64,000 bases of DNA, from contig MGTD01000064.1 in assembly GCA_001799285.1 (NCBI GenBank), forward strand, positions 1-64,000, written 5' to 3'. The DNA comes from Deltaproteobacteria bacterium RIFOXYD12_FULL_56_24. Lineage in GTDB: Bacteria > Desulfobacterota > Desulfobulbia > Desulfobulbales > Desulfurivibrionaceae. The translations under genes were made by a program, and so were the position numbers. Positions within the stretch are counted from its first letter, which is position 1. Each line of letters opens with the position of its first letter. Shown one piece after another: positions 3,170 to 56,439 of the stretch. The notes under the pieces were generated by a model that was not told where the DNA came from, did not search any database, and worked only from the letters and a program-made list of their open reading frames with translations.

Positions 3170-4266
<1,097 letters not shown>

Positions 4267-4318
4267 GTCTTTTGGAGGGTTCAGTGAGGAACCTTCATTC
4301 CCCATAAATCTCCTCATT

Positions 4319-4867: not shown

Positions 4868-5073
4868 GTAAGCGGTCACAAGGCCCCACATCTTGCGGCG
4901 ATCGGCCCGGTTCACGGACAAAAGTACGCATTCGCCGTCCCGCTTATAGCTGAGCTTGGCAGCTTGCCTGCCAAGAGAAACTTATACCCTCTGGGTGCGC
5001 GAACCTGCGGCACCCTGTGGCCGCTTATTTCGTGGTTATTTGACCTTTGTAGGCTTACCCCGTGATTGGTTAC
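4868..5073 (-). mobile_element. IS66-type MITE, subtype C, with perfect 8-bp target duplication
   Basis: The 206-bp element begins GTAAGCGGTCACA and ends CGTGATTGGTTAC (inverse GTAACCAATCACG). It is flanked on both sides by the direct repeat GTTAATGG (4860-4867, 5074-5081). Its larger part is an imperfect hairpin: GTAAGCGGTCACAAGGCCCC against GGCACCCTGTGGCCGCTTAT. The rest is an arm of about 45 bp. A family-A hairpin is inserted in the loop at 4947-5000. It separates cheY from cheX in the che cluster. Confidence 0.85.
4947..5000 (+). repeat. Family-A double hairpin nested in the MITE
   Basis: Stem CTTGGCAG (4956-4963), loop CTTGC, stem CTGCCAAG (4969-4976), then CTTATACCC-TCT-GGGTG. Both sides of the first stem differ from the common TTGAGCAG/CTGCTCAA in matching positions, so pairing is kept. 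Sister MITE copies lack this insert and read straight from CCCGCTTG into CCGCAACCTG. Confidence 0.75.
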
Positions 5074-11331: not shown

Positions 11332-11485
11332 GTAAGCGATCACATGGCACCACATCTTGCGGCGATCGGTCCGGCTCACGTACAAAAGTACGCTTCGCCG
11401 ACCCGCTTGCCGCAACCTGCGGCACCCTGTGACCGCTTATTCTGTGGTTATTTGACCTTTTTGGGCTTACTCCGTGATTGATTAC
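11332..11485 (-). mobile_element. IS66-type MITE, subtype C, with perfect 8-bp target duplication
   Basis: The 154-bp element begins GTAAGCGATCACATGG and ends CCGTGATTGATTAC. Both flanks are ATAATATC (11324-11331, 11486-11493). The internal hairpin pairs GTAAGCGATCACA with TGTGACCGCTTAT. The loop has TACAAAAGTACGC and CTTGCCGCAACCTGCGG. It is the least interrupted copy of subtype C. Confidence 0.88.
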
Positions 11486-13220: not shown

Positions 13221-13372
13221 TAACTATCCAGCTCAAGGCCGGAAACGAACAAAAACAACCCAAACCGTAACTATCCAGCAGTGCCGTAGCTGCTAGGCAG
13301 AAGCCTGCGAAGTGTGCGGGTGCCCATGAGCAGGCTGATAACAACGCAGATGCGGTGCTGCTGGATAGTTAC
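13221..13372 (+). mobile_element. IS66-type MITE, subtype B, at the mltD stop codon
   Basis: The element starts TAACTATCCAGC (first G lost or shared) and ends GCTGGATAGTTAC. A second GTAACTATCCAGCAG opens the internal hairpin, which closes with CTGCTGGATAGTTAC. The flanks AGAAATAA (13213-13220) and AAAAATAA (13373-13380) match at 7 of 8 positions, and the left one ends with the mltD stop TAA. Sequence and length are nearly identical to the copy at 30786-30938. Confidence 0.85.
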
Positions 13373-16884: not shown

Positions 16885-17083
16885 GATTGGCGCTCCTAGA
16901 TTGGTTGAGGTTACGATCCCGAGCCTCTCCCGGCCGACACTGCAAGGCCATGGGACAGGCACGACTCATGCTATTCATCATGCCTTTTTCTCCACAGAAT
17001 GGCAAGCTTTACGCACAGGAAATTCTCCATTGTTGCCTGCGCCCTAATCGTCTAATATAGCGTCTTTCCGTTTCGCTTTCGGG

Positions 17084-17267
17084 GTAAGCGTTCAGCAGCA
17101 CCACATCTGCTTTGTCATCGGCATGCTTATGTGCAATAGCACACTTCGCAGGCCTCTTGGTCGGACACTTCTGCCGACGACTGACACGCGCATCTATCCG
17201 TGGGGCACTGCTGACGCTTACATTCCTGAGTTTATCTTAAATTTTGGTACCCCTGGTGAACGATTAC
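17084..17267 (-). mobile_element. IS66-type MITE, subtype D, with perfect 8-bp target duplication
   Basis: The 184-bp element begins GTAAGCGTTCAGCAG and ends GGTGAACGATTAC, flanked on both sides by CTTTCGGG (17076-17083, 17268-17275). The inner hairpin pairs GTAAGCGTTCAGCAGCACC with the downstream CTGCTGACGCTTAC. The arm that follows is about 46 bp, as in the other subtypes. The hairpin loop shares CACACTTCGCAGGC and the CATCTGC block with subtype B although the ends differ. It lies 38 bp before the hisHF start. Confidence 0.85.
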
Positions 17268-17305
17268 CTTTCGGGGACGCACCCTCTCTTTTTTTGGGAA
17301 CCGCT

Positions 17306-18901
17306 ATGAACATAACACTTCTTGACTACGGGGCCGGCAATGTCCGCAGCGTCCGCAACGCCATCAAAAGGCTCGGCTTCACCGTTACGGACGCCACAAC
17401 CCCGGCGGATATCCTGGCCGCGAAAAAGCTGATCTTCCCCGGGGTCGGCAGCTTCGGCAGCGCCATGCAGCGGCTGCACCAATGCGGTTTTGTCGAGCCC
17501 CTGCTGGAATACCTCCAGGCCGATCGTCCATTTCTTGGCATCTGCCTGGGGCTGCAAACCCTTTTCGAGGGAAGCGAGGAGGCCTTGGGCGTGGCCGGAC
17601 TGGGGATCATCAAGGGTCAGGTCAGAAGGTTTAGCGAAACAACTCTTTCGGTGCCGCAGATCGGCTGGAACGGTATTAATATCAGAAAACCCTCCCGGCT
17701 CCTGGCCGGTTTCGCAGAGGAAAAACTCTACTTTGTCCACTCCTACCGGGCCGCCATCGAGGCAGGCAACGAGGAGTGGGTGCTGACCACCACCAACTAC
17801 GGCGAGGAGTTCATCAGCTCGGTCCAGAAGGGCAACGTGGCGGCCTGCCAGTTTCATCCGGAAAAAAGCGGCGGTGCCGGGCTTATGATTCTCAAAAACT
17901 TTCTTGAAGCCACGGACCTTTCCGCTGCCTATCCGATGGAGATCATTGCCTCGCCAACGGAAACAAGGCTCGCCAAACGGATTATCGCCTGTCTCGATGT
18001 GCGCAGCAATGACAACGGCGACCTGGTGGTAACCAAGGGCGACCAGTACGATGTCCGCGAAGCACAGGGCGAGGTGCGCAACCTCGGCAAGCCGGTGGAG
18101 CTGGCCCGCCGCTACTACGAAGAGGGCGCTGACGAGATCACTTTTTTAAACATCACCGGCTTCCGGGACTTCCCCATGAAGGACCAGCCCATGCTGGAGG
18201 TCTTGCAGCGCACCTCGGAACAGGTTTTCGTGCCGCTCACCATCGGCGGCGGCATCCGCGAATTCACCGACTCCAAAGGCAAGCACTACTCAGCCCTGGA
18301 CGTGGCTGCGGAATACTTCCGCTCCGGGGCCGACAAGATCTCCATCGGCAGCGACGCGGTGCTTATTGCTGAGGAATACCTGAAGGCCGGCAAGAAAACC
18401 GGGATCAGCTCCATCGAACAGATCTCGGCAGTGTACGGCAACCAGGCAGTGGTGATCTCCGTTGATCCGCGCCGGGTGTACGTAAAATCGCCCGCTGACA
18501 CCCCGCGCCACACCATCAAGAGCAAATTCCCCGGACCAAACGGCGAGGAGTATTGCTGGTATCAGTGTACGATCAAGGGTGGCCGCGAAGGCCGCGAGGT
18601 GGACGCCCTGGAGCTGGCCACCTCCTGCGAGGCCTTGGGAGCCGGAGAGATACTGTTGAACTGCATCGACAAGGACGGCACCAATTCGGGCTTTGATCTG
18701 GAACTGATCAACCAGGTGCGGCAGGCGGTCTCCATCCCGGTCATCGCCTCAAGTGGCGCCGGCAAGGTGGAGCATTTCTCGGAAGTTTTTGCAAAGACCG
18801 GGGCAGAGGCGGCTCTGGCGGCGGGGATTTTTCACCGGCAGGAAGTGCCGATCAGCGCGGTGAAAGCGCATCTGCGGGACAAGGGGATTGAGACGAGATA
18901 A
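17306..18901 (+). CDS. hisHF: Bifunctional imidazole glycerol phosphate synthase, HisH-HisF fusion (HIS7 type)
   Basis: IGP synthase makes imidazole glycerol phosphate and AICAR, linking histidine and purine synthesis. Residues 1-205 are the glutaminase: [12 protein letters not shown], nucleophile C80 in [14 protein letters not shown], and H184/E186 in CQFHPEKSG. Residues 224-531 are the cyclase barrel: D231 in [36 protein letters not shown] and [10 protein letters not shown]. The cyclase part is about 50 residues longer than bacterial HisF and carries the plant/fungal features [27 protein letters not shown] and [25 protein letters not shown] 17306 is fixed by homology. No other his gene is nearby. 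Confidence 0.95.
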
Positions 18902-30785: not shown

Positions 30786-32255
<1,470 letters not shown>

Positions 32256-32257
<2 letters not shown>

Positions 32258-32293
32258 AGCTGAGTTGAGCAGCTTGTCTGCTCAAACGAAACT
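32256..32293 (+). repeat. Family-A hairpin, left half, at the purA stop
   Basis: AAAGCTGAG, stem TTGAGCAG (32265-32272), loop CTTGT, stem CTGCTCAA (32278-32285), ACGAAAC. The usual following part CTTATGCCCTTTGGGTG is found about 105 bp later, at 32399-32415. The copy may therefore be split by an insertion. The stop codon TAA of purA overlaps its first bases. Confidence 0.65.
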
Positions 32294-38879: not shown

Positions 38880-38907
38880 GTTTTTTAGTTGTGACAAGAC
38901 CGTCAAG

Positions 38908-38959
38908 TCTGAATTGAACAGCTTGCCTGCTCAAACTAAACTTATGCCCTTTGGGTGTA
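38908..38959 (+). repeat. Family-A double hairpin next to a response-regulator start
   Basis: Stem TTGAACAG (38914-38921), loop CTTGC, stem CTGCTCAA (38927-38934; one A/C mismatch), then ACTAAACTTATGCCCTTTGGGTG with the second CCC-TTT-GGG hairpin. It ends about 12 bp before the start codon of the receiver gene and abuts its ribosome site AGAGGA. Confidence 0.7.
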
Positions 38960-46269: not shown

Positions 46270-46475
46270 GTAACTACCAGCTCAAGGCCGGGAACGAACA
46301 AAAACAACCAAAACCGTAACTATCCAGCAGTGGTGTGCACCCAAAGGGCATAAGTCTCGTTTGGGCAGGCAAACTGCCCAACTCAGCTATAGCTGCTAGG
46401 CAGAAAAGCCGGCGAAGTGTTGGTGCCCATGAGCAGGCTGACAACAACGCAGATGCGGTGCTGCTGGATAGTTAC
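46270..46475 (+). mobile_element. IS66-type MITE, subtype B, between fliN and fliO, with nested hairpin
   Basis: The 206-bp element runs from GTAACTACCAGC (one base lost) to GCTGGATAGTTAC. Perfect direct repeats AGCCTGGC flank it (46262-46269, 46476-46483). It matches the copies at 13221 and 30786 except for a family-A double hairpin inserted in the internal stem (46335-46390). It lies inside the flagellar operon without breaking a gene. Confidence 0.9.
46335..46390 (-). repeat. Family-A double hairpin nested in the fliN-fliO MITE
   Basis: On the plus strand: CACCCAAAGGGCATAAG, then stem TTGGGCAG (46361-46368), loop GCAAA, stem CTGCCCAA (46374-46381), then CTCAGCTAT. Both strands of the stem carry the matching change relative to TTGAGCAG/CTGCTCAA. 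Nearly the same boundaries (ATAGCTGAG to GGGTGC) are found in the copy nested at 4947-5000. Confidence 0.78.
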
Positions 46476-52216: not shown

Positions 52217-53488
52217 ATGCGAATCAAGCGTTTTGAAGCCTCGGACACCTACAGCGCCATGGCCATGGTCAAGGAAGAACTCGGAGAGGACGCCGTTATT
52301 CTTTCCACCAGAAGCCTTCCCGGCAAAAGCGGCTCAGCCGGAGGCAAAGCGATGATCGAGGTGGTGGCGGCCATTGAATATGACCCGGAGATTACCATGC
52401 CTCCACCCGAAGCGCCGGACAAGGAAACCCGGCGGACAAAAGCGGCGGGGTACGGCTATCACTCCGTGCGGCAGGCCTTGCTACCAAAGGCAAATGTTGC
52501 TCCCCGCCAGGCAATAGAGCAGACGACAGCGAAACCGGACACGACGCAACCCGGGTTTGAGAGCAGACTTTCCGCCGAGCTTACCGGCCGCACCCTGCCA
52601 ACCGACAAGAATGCCAAGACCGGCAAGACGGGAAAGGTCCATTTTGAGGCCAATGACCTCCGGCTCCGCTTTGCCAATTTTCTTCGGCGCCAATACTGCG
52701 CCAAGGAAGAGCTTGAAAGCCGCGCCATCCCGGGGCCGACCGCCGATCAAGCCGAACAGAAAACCACCAGGCCCGACCCGAAACAGGTTGCCCAGTGGCG
52801 GGACAAAATCATCGACCAGCTGCAGATAACCCCTCTGGCCATCGGGATCAGCAAGGCACCCACCGTGGTGGCCATGATCGGCCCCACCGGGGTGGGCAAA
52901 ACCACGACCGCCGCCAAAATCGCCGCCTGGTACAGCATCCATGAAGGGTTGCAGGTGGTACTCCTCTCCATGGACTGCTACCGCATCGGGGCCACGGACC
53001 AGCTGCGGACCTATGCCAAGATCATGCGCTTGCCCTGCGAAATAGCCCTACGCAAAAAGGATTTGCAGACGGCCATTCTCCGTCACCAGGACAAGGATCT
53101 GATCATCATCGACACCGCAGGCAAGAGTCCTTATGATTCAAACCACATTCGGGAACTGTCCGAATGGTTTTCCCTGGGAAACGAAATAGAGCCCTATCTG
53201 GTCCTCAGCGCCACCAGCAAAAAAGAAGACCTGCAACAAATCCTCGCCACCTATGAACCATTGCGAGTCAAGGGGTTGATCCTCTCCAAACTCGATGAAA
53301 CCAGGGCATACGCCACCCTCTGCCAGCTGCTGGCCGGGGCTGCGTTACCCATCTCCTGTCTATGCACCGGCCAGAGGGTTCCGGAGGATTTCCTCCTTGC
53401 CTCCCGGGAGTTCTTGCAGATCCTCTTTGGCCAGGGCTGGCAGGCAGCCGCCGGTGAGCTTGCCACCGAGGCCCAAGGCAAATGGTAA
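52217..53488 (+). CDS. flhF: Flagellar GTPase FlhF, 3' end replaced by a MITE
   Basis: FlhF is an SRP-like GTPase that sets flagellar position and number with FlhG. The 423-residue protein has an N-terminal basic domain (MRIKRFEASDTYSAMAMVKEELGEDAVILSTRSL), a Pro/Thr-rich linker, and an NG domain with P-loop GPTGVGKTTTAAKIA (about 222-236), MDCYRIGATDQLRTYA, IIIDTAGKSPYD and SKLDETRAYATL. The TAA stop belongs to the inserted MITE (GTAAGCG). At the other side of the element the frame would have read G-N-W-T-Q-stop, so only about three residues were altered. Confidence 0.94.
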   Translation: MRIKRFEASDTYSAMAMVKEELGEDAVILSTRSLPGKSGSAGGKAMIEVVAAIEYDPEITMPPPEAPDKETRRTKAAGYGYHSVRQALLPKANVAPRQAIEQTTAKPDTTQPGFESRLSAELTGRTLPTDKNAKTGKTGKVHFEANDLRLRFANFLRRQYCAKEELESRAIPGPTADQAEQKTTRPDPKQVAQWRDKIIDQLQITPLAIGISKAPTVVAMIGPTGVGKTTTAAKIAAWYSIHEGLQVVLLSMDCYRIGATDQLRTYAKIMRLPCEIALRKKDLQTAILRHQDKDLIIIDTAGKSPYDSNHIRELSEWFSLGNEIEPYLVLSATSKKEDLQQILATYEPLRVKGLILSKLDETRAYATLCQLLAGAALPISCLCTGQRVPEDFLLASREFLQILFGQGWQAAAGELATEAQGKW

Positions 53489-53627
53489 GCGATCACAGGG
53501 CACCACATCTTGCGGCGATCGGTCCGTCACGTACAAAAGTACGCATCGCCAGCCCGCTTGTCGCAACCTGCGGCACCCTGTGACCGTTTGTTCCGTGGTT
53601 ATTTGACCTCTTGGGGCATTTCGTTAC
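53485..53627 (-). mobile_element. IS66-type MITE, subtype C, supplying the flhF stop codon
   Basis: The 143-bp element begins GTAAGCGATCACAGGG and ends GGCATTTCGTTAC. The flanks GGCAAATG (53477-53484) and GGCAACTG (53628-53635) match at 7 of 8 positions. The hairpin GTAAGCGATCACAGGGCACC/GGCACCCTGTGACCG is well kept. The TAA in its first five bases ends flhF, and the flhG ribosome site follows 20-30 bp after its other end. Confidence 0.85.
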
Positions 53628-56227: not shown

Positions 56228-56439
56228 GCAACTGTTCAGCCTGGAGCCGGAAAGTGAGAAAAACCACCAAGCGTAACTGTTGCGCTGTGCCGCAGAGGCG
56301 CGACAGAGGCCTGATGGCTACCCCAGCGAAGCTGGATAAAAAGCCCCCATATCCGGTCCCCGGACCAAAGGGTTCTAAACAATTCGTATGCGTTCAGGCC
56401 GATAACAAAGCAGCTGCGGTGCTGCGACTGGACAGTTCC
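56228..56439 (+). mobile_element. IS66-type MITE, diverged subtype B, at the cheY stop codon
   Basis: The 212-bp element begins GCAACTGTTCAGCC and ends CTGGACAGTTCC, with perfect flanking repeats CTGATATA (56220-56227, 56440-56447). An arm of 45 bp leads to GCGTAACTGTTGCGCTGTGCCG. The right part keeps CAGGCCGATAACAAAGCAGC and GCGGTGCTGC, as in subtype B. The loop also holds the GC palindrome GGTCCCCGGACC. The left target copy includes the cheY stop. Confidence 0.85.

Follow-up and report, generated by a model that had tools for sequence, protein, structure and literature searches.

In most descriptions, bacterial MITEs are the passive remains of insertion sequences, and their transcripts fold by chance. 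The Correia/NEMIS, ERIC and BOX/RUP MITEs (PMC2229807) are 100–200 bp in length and geneless, with terminal repeats, a target duplication and transcripts predicted as long stem-loops, and the elements described here share these properties. They differ in that one end is part of a hairpin together with an inner copy of that end, with a third end located ∼46 bp away, in that pairing is evident from covariation and strand bias and in that a homologous hairpin occurs in MITEs with unrelated ends. Judged by its description, the Chunjie MITE of Geobacter uraniireducens (PMC10969869) is comparable in size (178–235 bp), contains direct repeats and comes from a broadly similar bacterial group. The Desulfotalea-1 motif (PMC2864571), compared here by its table entry, is a candidate structured RNA bearing the name of a Desulfobulbales genus; the table marks it as ambiguous as an RNA and lists it without an Rfam accession.

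We analysed a stretch of 64,000 nucleotides from Deltaproteobacteria bacterium RIFOXYD12_FULL_56_24 (contig MGTD01000064.1; referred to as the window). A composite element at 17084–17267 consists of the following parts, in which A and Z denote the outer ends and I the inner copy.

17084–17267, minus strand (the folded strand): D-type composite element of 184 bp (sequence check)
17076–17083, no strand: left 8-bp copy of the target duplication, CTTTCGGG (single copy at the empty site of congener G006, L407)
17268–17275, no strand: right 8-bp copy of the target duplication, CTTTCGGG (sequence check)
17084–17098, plus strand: outer end A, GTAAGCGTTCAGCAG, one arm of the hairpin stem (sequence and element alignment)
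17208–17221, minus strand: inner copy I (GTAAGCG-TCAGCAG on the minus strand; CTGCTGACGCTTAC inverted), the opposite arm of the stem
17222–17267, minus strand: 46-bp arm, closing with outer end Z (GTAATCGTTCACC on the minus strand)
17084–17221, minus strand: hairpin module of 138 nt (folding energies and a covariance-model match on the minus strand, 45 bits)

The arrangement of A, inverted I, 46-bp arm and inverted Z agrees in every part with the earlier note on this DNA. The 184-bp insertion, bordered on either side by a perfect copy of CTTTCGGG, lies upstream of a hisH-like frame. The empty site in congener G006 reads TTTCCGTTTCG-CTTTCGGG-GACGC, with one copy of CTTTCGGG and without the element, and closely similar empty sites, with variants, are found in congeners G008, G013, G014 and G016. 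Insertion and 8-bp duplication are therefore read directly from these single-copy sites, and 17084–17267 is a real insertion. The hairpin is ∼30 nt longer than the usual 106–108 nt and folds with −63.3 kcal/mol (z −5.4) on the minus strand and −53.2 kcal/mol (z −3.8) on the plus strand. Downstream of the element, one 592-residue frame (17307–18901) starts as HisH and continues with a HisF-like part. A short way upstream of the orthologous site, ahead of hisH in a congener (L405, G010), a different inverted-repeat insertion (GAGGCTCTTGCAAAA...TTTTGCAAGAGGCTT) is present.

The window contains further copies of several subtypes.

13221–13372, plus strand: B-type element (hairpin 13267–13372; first base of Z lost; 104.6 bits)
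30786–30938, plus strand: B-type element (hairpin 30833–30938; duplication GATTGCGG; 103.8 bits)
46316–46475, plus strand: B-type hairpin with a nested 54-bp repeat; Z and the arm lie just upstream
4868–5073, minus strand: C-type element with a nested repeat (duplication GTTAATGG)
11332–11485, minus strand: C-type element (hairpin 11333–11439; duplication ATAATATC; 84.1 bits)
53485–53590, minus strand: C-type hairpin (covariance model, 59.8 bits)
56228–56439, plus strand: E-type element (hairpin 56273–56439; duplication CTGATATA; 42.1 bits)

The B and C elements and the copy at 56228 that had been reported before were all verified, with a perfect 8-bp duplication around each of 4868–5073, 11332–11485, 30786–30938 and 56228–56439, and the homology claimed for the B and D loops is real (80% over 74 nt). 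The composite plan itself is borne out by 155 distinct elements, 104 from this genome and 51 from other genomes. It is common to all subtypes and comprises Z, a spacer (43–51 bp with Z included), the inner copy I, a loop and the outer end A; the spacer sequence is poorly conserved, yet the distance from Z to I is kept at 43–51 bp. Most copies belong to a few subtypes and are 90–96% alike within them. The genome and its relatives also contain subtypes F (GTAACCGTTCAGC), G (GTAACTGCTCAGC), D2 (GTAAACGTTCAGC) and H (GTAAACGTTCACC), as well as other end words such as GTAACTGTTCAGC, GTAATCGTTCAGC and GTAAAAGTTCAGC. Two solo hairpins without Z (L120:4380–4485 and L163:1505–1610) have their own perfect 8-bp duplications; thus, the inner copy I can act as an end, albeit rarely.

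In 818 kb of genomic sequence, a purely structural scan for GTAA-like inverted ends with an exact or nearly exact 8-bp duplication gave 91 end pairs, compared with 9–13 when one side was slid. Applied to 20 stretches of 20 kb picked irrespective of matches (400 kb in all), the covariance model found ∼36 hairpins, corresponding to ∼270 per genome. A search pattern that left the four variable end positions unconstrained was run against 84,980 species, and the matches listed all came from contigs labelled Desulfobulbales, Desulfobacterales, Desulfoarculaceae or unplaced delta/Proteobacteria. Among the carriers are two culturable relatives, Desulfurivibrio sp. AMeS2 and Desulfogranum marinum DSM 2058. 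The elements are short, multi-copy and devoid of a transposase gene, they end in inverted terminal repeats and duplicate their target, and relatives retain an empty site at which the target is present once, as in MITEs. Palindromes of the REP/REPIN or IS200/IS605 type, which have neither target duplication nor inverted ends, are contradicted by the 8-bp duplications and the inverted ends. A second palindromic repeat (ACCCAGAGGGTATAAGTTTCGTTTGAGCAGGCAAGCTGCTCAACTCAGCT) occurs solo in the window (4215–4267, 32256–32293, 38904–38956 and 46338–46386) and is also nested in the loops of many hairpins, where it constitutes the 54-bp insert of the 207-bp B elements.

The GTAA termini and the 8-bp target duplication are those of IS66 derivatives. 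Single-ORF members of IS66, which we take to be the ISBst12-like subgroup, share both features with the present elements, and the B-type end is identical in 13 of 13 nt to GTAACTATCCAGC of one such element in G048 (1,729 bp, 8-bp duplication). The subtype G end matches an IS66 element in G124 (L209) at 13 of its first 14 nt. Other single-ORF IS66 ends in the order are GTAACTATTCAGC and GTAACTACTCAGC; canonical IS66 from the same family ends in GTAAGCGCTCAGCAAACC, and a two-ORF element in G030 (L158/L208, 1240–3653; 2,414 bp) ends in GTAACTGTTCAGG. The last of these carries a 295-residue second ORF beside the transposase. The C and D ends match autonomous IS66 less well and lean towards the ends of canonical three-gene IS66. 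The suggestion that the subtypes are served by different transposases is plausible in this light: B, G and other ends equal those of different single-ORF IS66 elements in relatives, while C and D point towards the canonical type.

The MITEs differ from the single-ORF elements in being geneless and hairpin-bearing, and only their outer 13–16 nt match, so that they are not simple deletion derivatives of IS66. An IS66 origin of the arms inward of their first 16 nt was considered and rejected, as similarity in the interior is scarcely above that of shuffled sequence (5.8 versus 5.1). The hairpin module is absent from the autonomous IS66 elements examined, except for a short fragmentary match beside an IS66 remnant in L213. 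Neither a PF03050 match nor a protein match to an IS66 transposase was found in this genome (a 95% complete draft) or in 16 congeners. The comparison with resident IS66 elements proposed in the earlier note is therefore feasible in relatives but not in this genome. By their termini, the elements are best described as IS66-type MITEs with GTAA ends that are probably moved in trans by an IS66 transposase, which may have been lost from the genus or may visit on other replicons. Copies with perfect duplications suggest recent activity.

The three end copies of one element are related by two distinct couplings. Different end triplets are present in 113 of the 155 distinct elements with a duplication. 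Among these 155, A and I covary at end positions 5–8 and 12–13, and Z tracks A mainly at positions 6, 8 and 9. Per-position counts were made with each distinct triple of 5–9 words taken once (n = 75). At position 5, A equals I in 68 cases (27 expected) and Z in 32 (27 expected, p 0.05). Both agreements are high at position 6 (A = I in 68, 31 expected; A = Z in 63, 32 expected) and at position 8 (A = I in 59, 29 expected; A = Z in 58, 32 expected). At position 9, A equals Z in 65 cases (47 expected) and I in 52 (46 expected). The separation is sharpest in the NCG/NAG class, where position 5 is the same in A and I in 52 of 58 triples (22.8 expected) and in A and Z in 11 of 58 (10.6 expected, p 0.51). 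Position 5 therefore reflects pairing and not end recognition, and position 9 the reverse. The copies are related and the counts are not independent events, so that the raw numbers overstate independence.

With a search pattern that left positions 5–8 open, 67 of 83 hairpins contain identical words in both arms, compared with a mean of 13.6 and a maximum of 24 in 2,000 shuffles. On a tree built from the loop alone, the word of one arm changes 20 times and that of the other 21 times, and in 16 cases the changes share a branch (5.4 expected); these counts are approximate because the tree rests on ∼70 columns. In subtype C, I lacks the terminal GT (ACAAGCGGTCACAG) in most copies and still matches or pairs with A elsewhere. 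The coupling between I and A is base pairing. The claim that three copies had changed together thus holds almost strictly for A and I, whereas the dependence of Z on A is limited to some positions and does not extend to position 5 in the NCG/NAG class. A single three-way coupling is ruled out, as A and Z are unlinked at position 5; in the larger alignment of 155 elements the internal repeat does track the adjacent outer end, and the coupling resolves into two pairwise ones, A–I within the hairpin and A–Z between the outer ends, at different positions.

The consensus structure, derived from 40 diverse hairpins, contains 36 covarying pairs in three helices, with 96.2% of cells paired and double-sided changes in 30 of the 36 pairs. 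Its covariation score is 0.451, compared with 0.199 for shuffled partners and at most 0.094 for slid partners, and the structure-aware alignment thus reveals covariation well beyond both controls. In the best-sampled hairpins the search pattern fixed six stem positions (CAGCAG and CTGCTG), leaving positions 5–8 and the inner helices free. The two inner helices do not contribute to the transposon ends and are set apart by conserved internal loops, and their covariation is equal in strength to that of the outer helix. A tandem step of two neighboring pairs is retained as wobble, U·G in 31 and G·U in 34 of the 40 sequences, and in the motif CAGAUGC/GCAGAUG two G·A steps face each other.

The hairpin has a clear strand preference. 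Mismatches between the arms are of the G·U type in 393 cases on the strand read from Z to A and in 82 cases on the other strand, and the Z-to-A strand is the more stable in 133 of 136 copies (mean −68.8 versus −53.9 kcal/mol). Orientation was set by Z alone and not by stability for these strand statistics; in alignment A2, the hairpins from the genome_contigs set were partly oriented by stability. A strand-specific mutation bias was rejected as the source of the G·U mismatches, since arm substitutions contain no consistent C-to-T excess on the Z-to-A strand. As the mismatches that persist form G·U pairs on the Z-to-A strand, the pairing appears to be selected in a single strand that is read from Z towards A. 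Compensatory changes beyond controls and a tolerance of G·U on one strand are what is expected of a structured RNA. A search of Rfam 15 gave no family above threshold or at E values up to 1, the output being sub-threshold chance matches and a neighboring tRNA, and a literature search with the hairpin core sequence returned nothing relevant. We propose a conserved module of structured RNA (or single-stranded DNA), the stem of which doubles as a transposon end.

Hairpin orientation relative to neighboring genes, as called by a simple coding-score script, is without bias (37 versus 46), orientation relative to GC skew, a proxy for the replication strand, is even (p 1.0), and no promoter is evident by eye in the arms. 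A role in regulating neighboring genes is therefore not supported, and a regulatory RNA tied to those genes was discarded on the evenness of orientation. We favor a structured RNA or single strand that would serve the element itself.

Taken as a whole, the following explanation is one that we consider likely. The elements would be non-autonomous IS66-type MITEs, bounded by outer ends A and Z with GTAA termini and an 8-bp duplication, and mobilized in trans by transposases of the IS66 family, which the genus no longer possesses. Between Z and A they would carry a conserved hairpin module of ∼106 nt, with A and the inner copy I as its outer stem. Recognition of A and Z by the same transposase would account for the tracking at positions 6, 8 and 9 and for the retention of GT at positions 1–2, while A–I pairing would drive the joint change at positions 5–8 and 12–13 irrespective of the relevance of a position to the transposase. 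The pairing would be under selection in one single strand, from Z towards A. With one transposon end forming part of the hairpin stem, the two copies of that end would have to change jointly for the pairing to persist. Of the pairing-dependent recognition suggested previously, the dependence on pairing stands, as I and the adjacent end are the arms of a strongly covarying stem; recognition of that pairing by the transposase is not needed, because the subtype C inner copy without the terminal GT still pairs.

The same anatomy could belong to a fold in single-stranded DNA: replication or transposition would expose the DNA, and binding would be confined to one strand, in the manner of IS200/IS605 hairpins or integron attC sites. 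Folding that is strand-specific without a fixed relation to gene direction fits such a molecule, G·T and sheared G·A pairs form in DNA too, and the module is present in several unrelated MITE families; however, the replication-strand proxy is unassociated, and 8-bp (or 5-bp) duplications with inverted terminal repeats typify DDE transposases, which act on double-stranded substrates. We regard single-stranded DNA as possible but rather unlikely, and RNA is favored, with covariation that fits both. A different origin for the A–I identity would be template switching of the quasi-palindrome-correcting kind, by which the arms are homogenized and their identity becomes a mutational by-product of the inverted repeat, with no need for selection on folding. 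Arm homogenization and paired changes in inverted repeats are known from this process (PMC8794818; PMC7202029) and paired changes are found here as well, and in most elements A and I are identical at end positions at which Z differs. Template switching nevertheless predicts no strand preference, and the one-strand G·U bias (393 versus 82) is not among its products; the inner helices beyond the conserved internal loops covary as well, most of the 40 sequences (31 and 34) keep the tandem U·G/G·U wobble, and the arm substitution spectra have no matching strand bias. We consider this origin improbable. The gene-conversion-like exchange invoked in the earlier note is equivalent to replication template switching between the arms, and likewise can yield the paired changes (PMC8794818) but leaves the one-strand mismatches unexplained.

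Recognition alone might keep the three copies alike if all were transposase-binding sites, with I as a second site in direct repeat with Z ∼46 bp off. The retained Z-to-I spacing of 43–51 bp across a poorly conserved spacer agrees with this, and the solo hairpins with perfect 8-bp duplications (L120 and L163) indicate that I is usable as an end. Against this, most subtype C inner copies lack GT at positions 1–2 with the pairing to A intact, position 5 follows its pairing partner and not Z, and at position 9 it is I that departs from A while Z does not; we give this account little credence. Plain common descent, in which every subtype has a single origin, with an end of its own, and agreement reflects nothing more than that origin, draws on the concentration of most copies in a few subtypes that are 90–96% alike within. 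Loops are homologous between subtypes with different ends, however, and the arms change on the same branches of the loop tree many times, which refutes common descent unless the tree is grossly wrong and renders it very improbable.

The hairpin extends beyond this family of elements, being found in 35 of 395 genomes of the phylum, many of them outside the order. Composites of the same kind with other end words and 8-bp duplications occur at L341, L345 and L347–L349. A MITE family with 13-bp ends CCTAAATTGAGCG (197–209 bp and longer; L352, L361–L365 in G387, L373 in G613 and L380 in G629) carries a homologous hairpin core, with a 5-bp duplication in several copies (G387 and G613), and a third MITE family with ends CCCAGATTATGCA (∼240 bp; L360 and L368–L371 in G455, G321, G497 and G608) has the same core. 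When 21 distant hairpins were aligned separately, the same structure was obtained, with a covariation score of 0.673 compared with 0.224 for shuffled and at most 0.123 for slid partners. A version of 124–127 nt (L375–L378 in G272, G274, G423 and G591) has an extended inner stem and differing outer stems, e.g. GAGACTGTTCAAAA...TTTTCAACAGTCTC; a plasmid search with one such distant 124-nt hairpin gave no match. It is quite possible, and we put it forward tentatively, that the hairpin is a transferable functional module of RNA (or single-stranded DNA) that has been joined to several unrelated miniature transposons across Desulfobacterota (those with GTAA ends and an 8-bp duplication, those with CCTAAATTGAGCG ends and a 5-bp duplication, and those ending in CCCAGATTATGCA). 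Among the GTAA elements, the variable outer stem would have been co-opted as a transposon end, and recognition of that end would then co-evolve with hairpin pairing within shared nucleotides.

The host is a sulfur-cycle bacterium, and the elements form a family of the Desulfobulbales. In these MITEs the fold is under measurable one-strand selection, recurs in MITEs whose ends are unrelated and occupies in part the bases needed for transposase recognition. The hairpin is a candidate for an undescribed structured RNA of phylum-wide distribution, the likeness to Desulfotalea-1 being that of a table entry. Each genome supplies hundreds of natural variants in which end recognition can be told apart from folding at individual positions, position 5 serving pairing only and position 9 the outer ends only.
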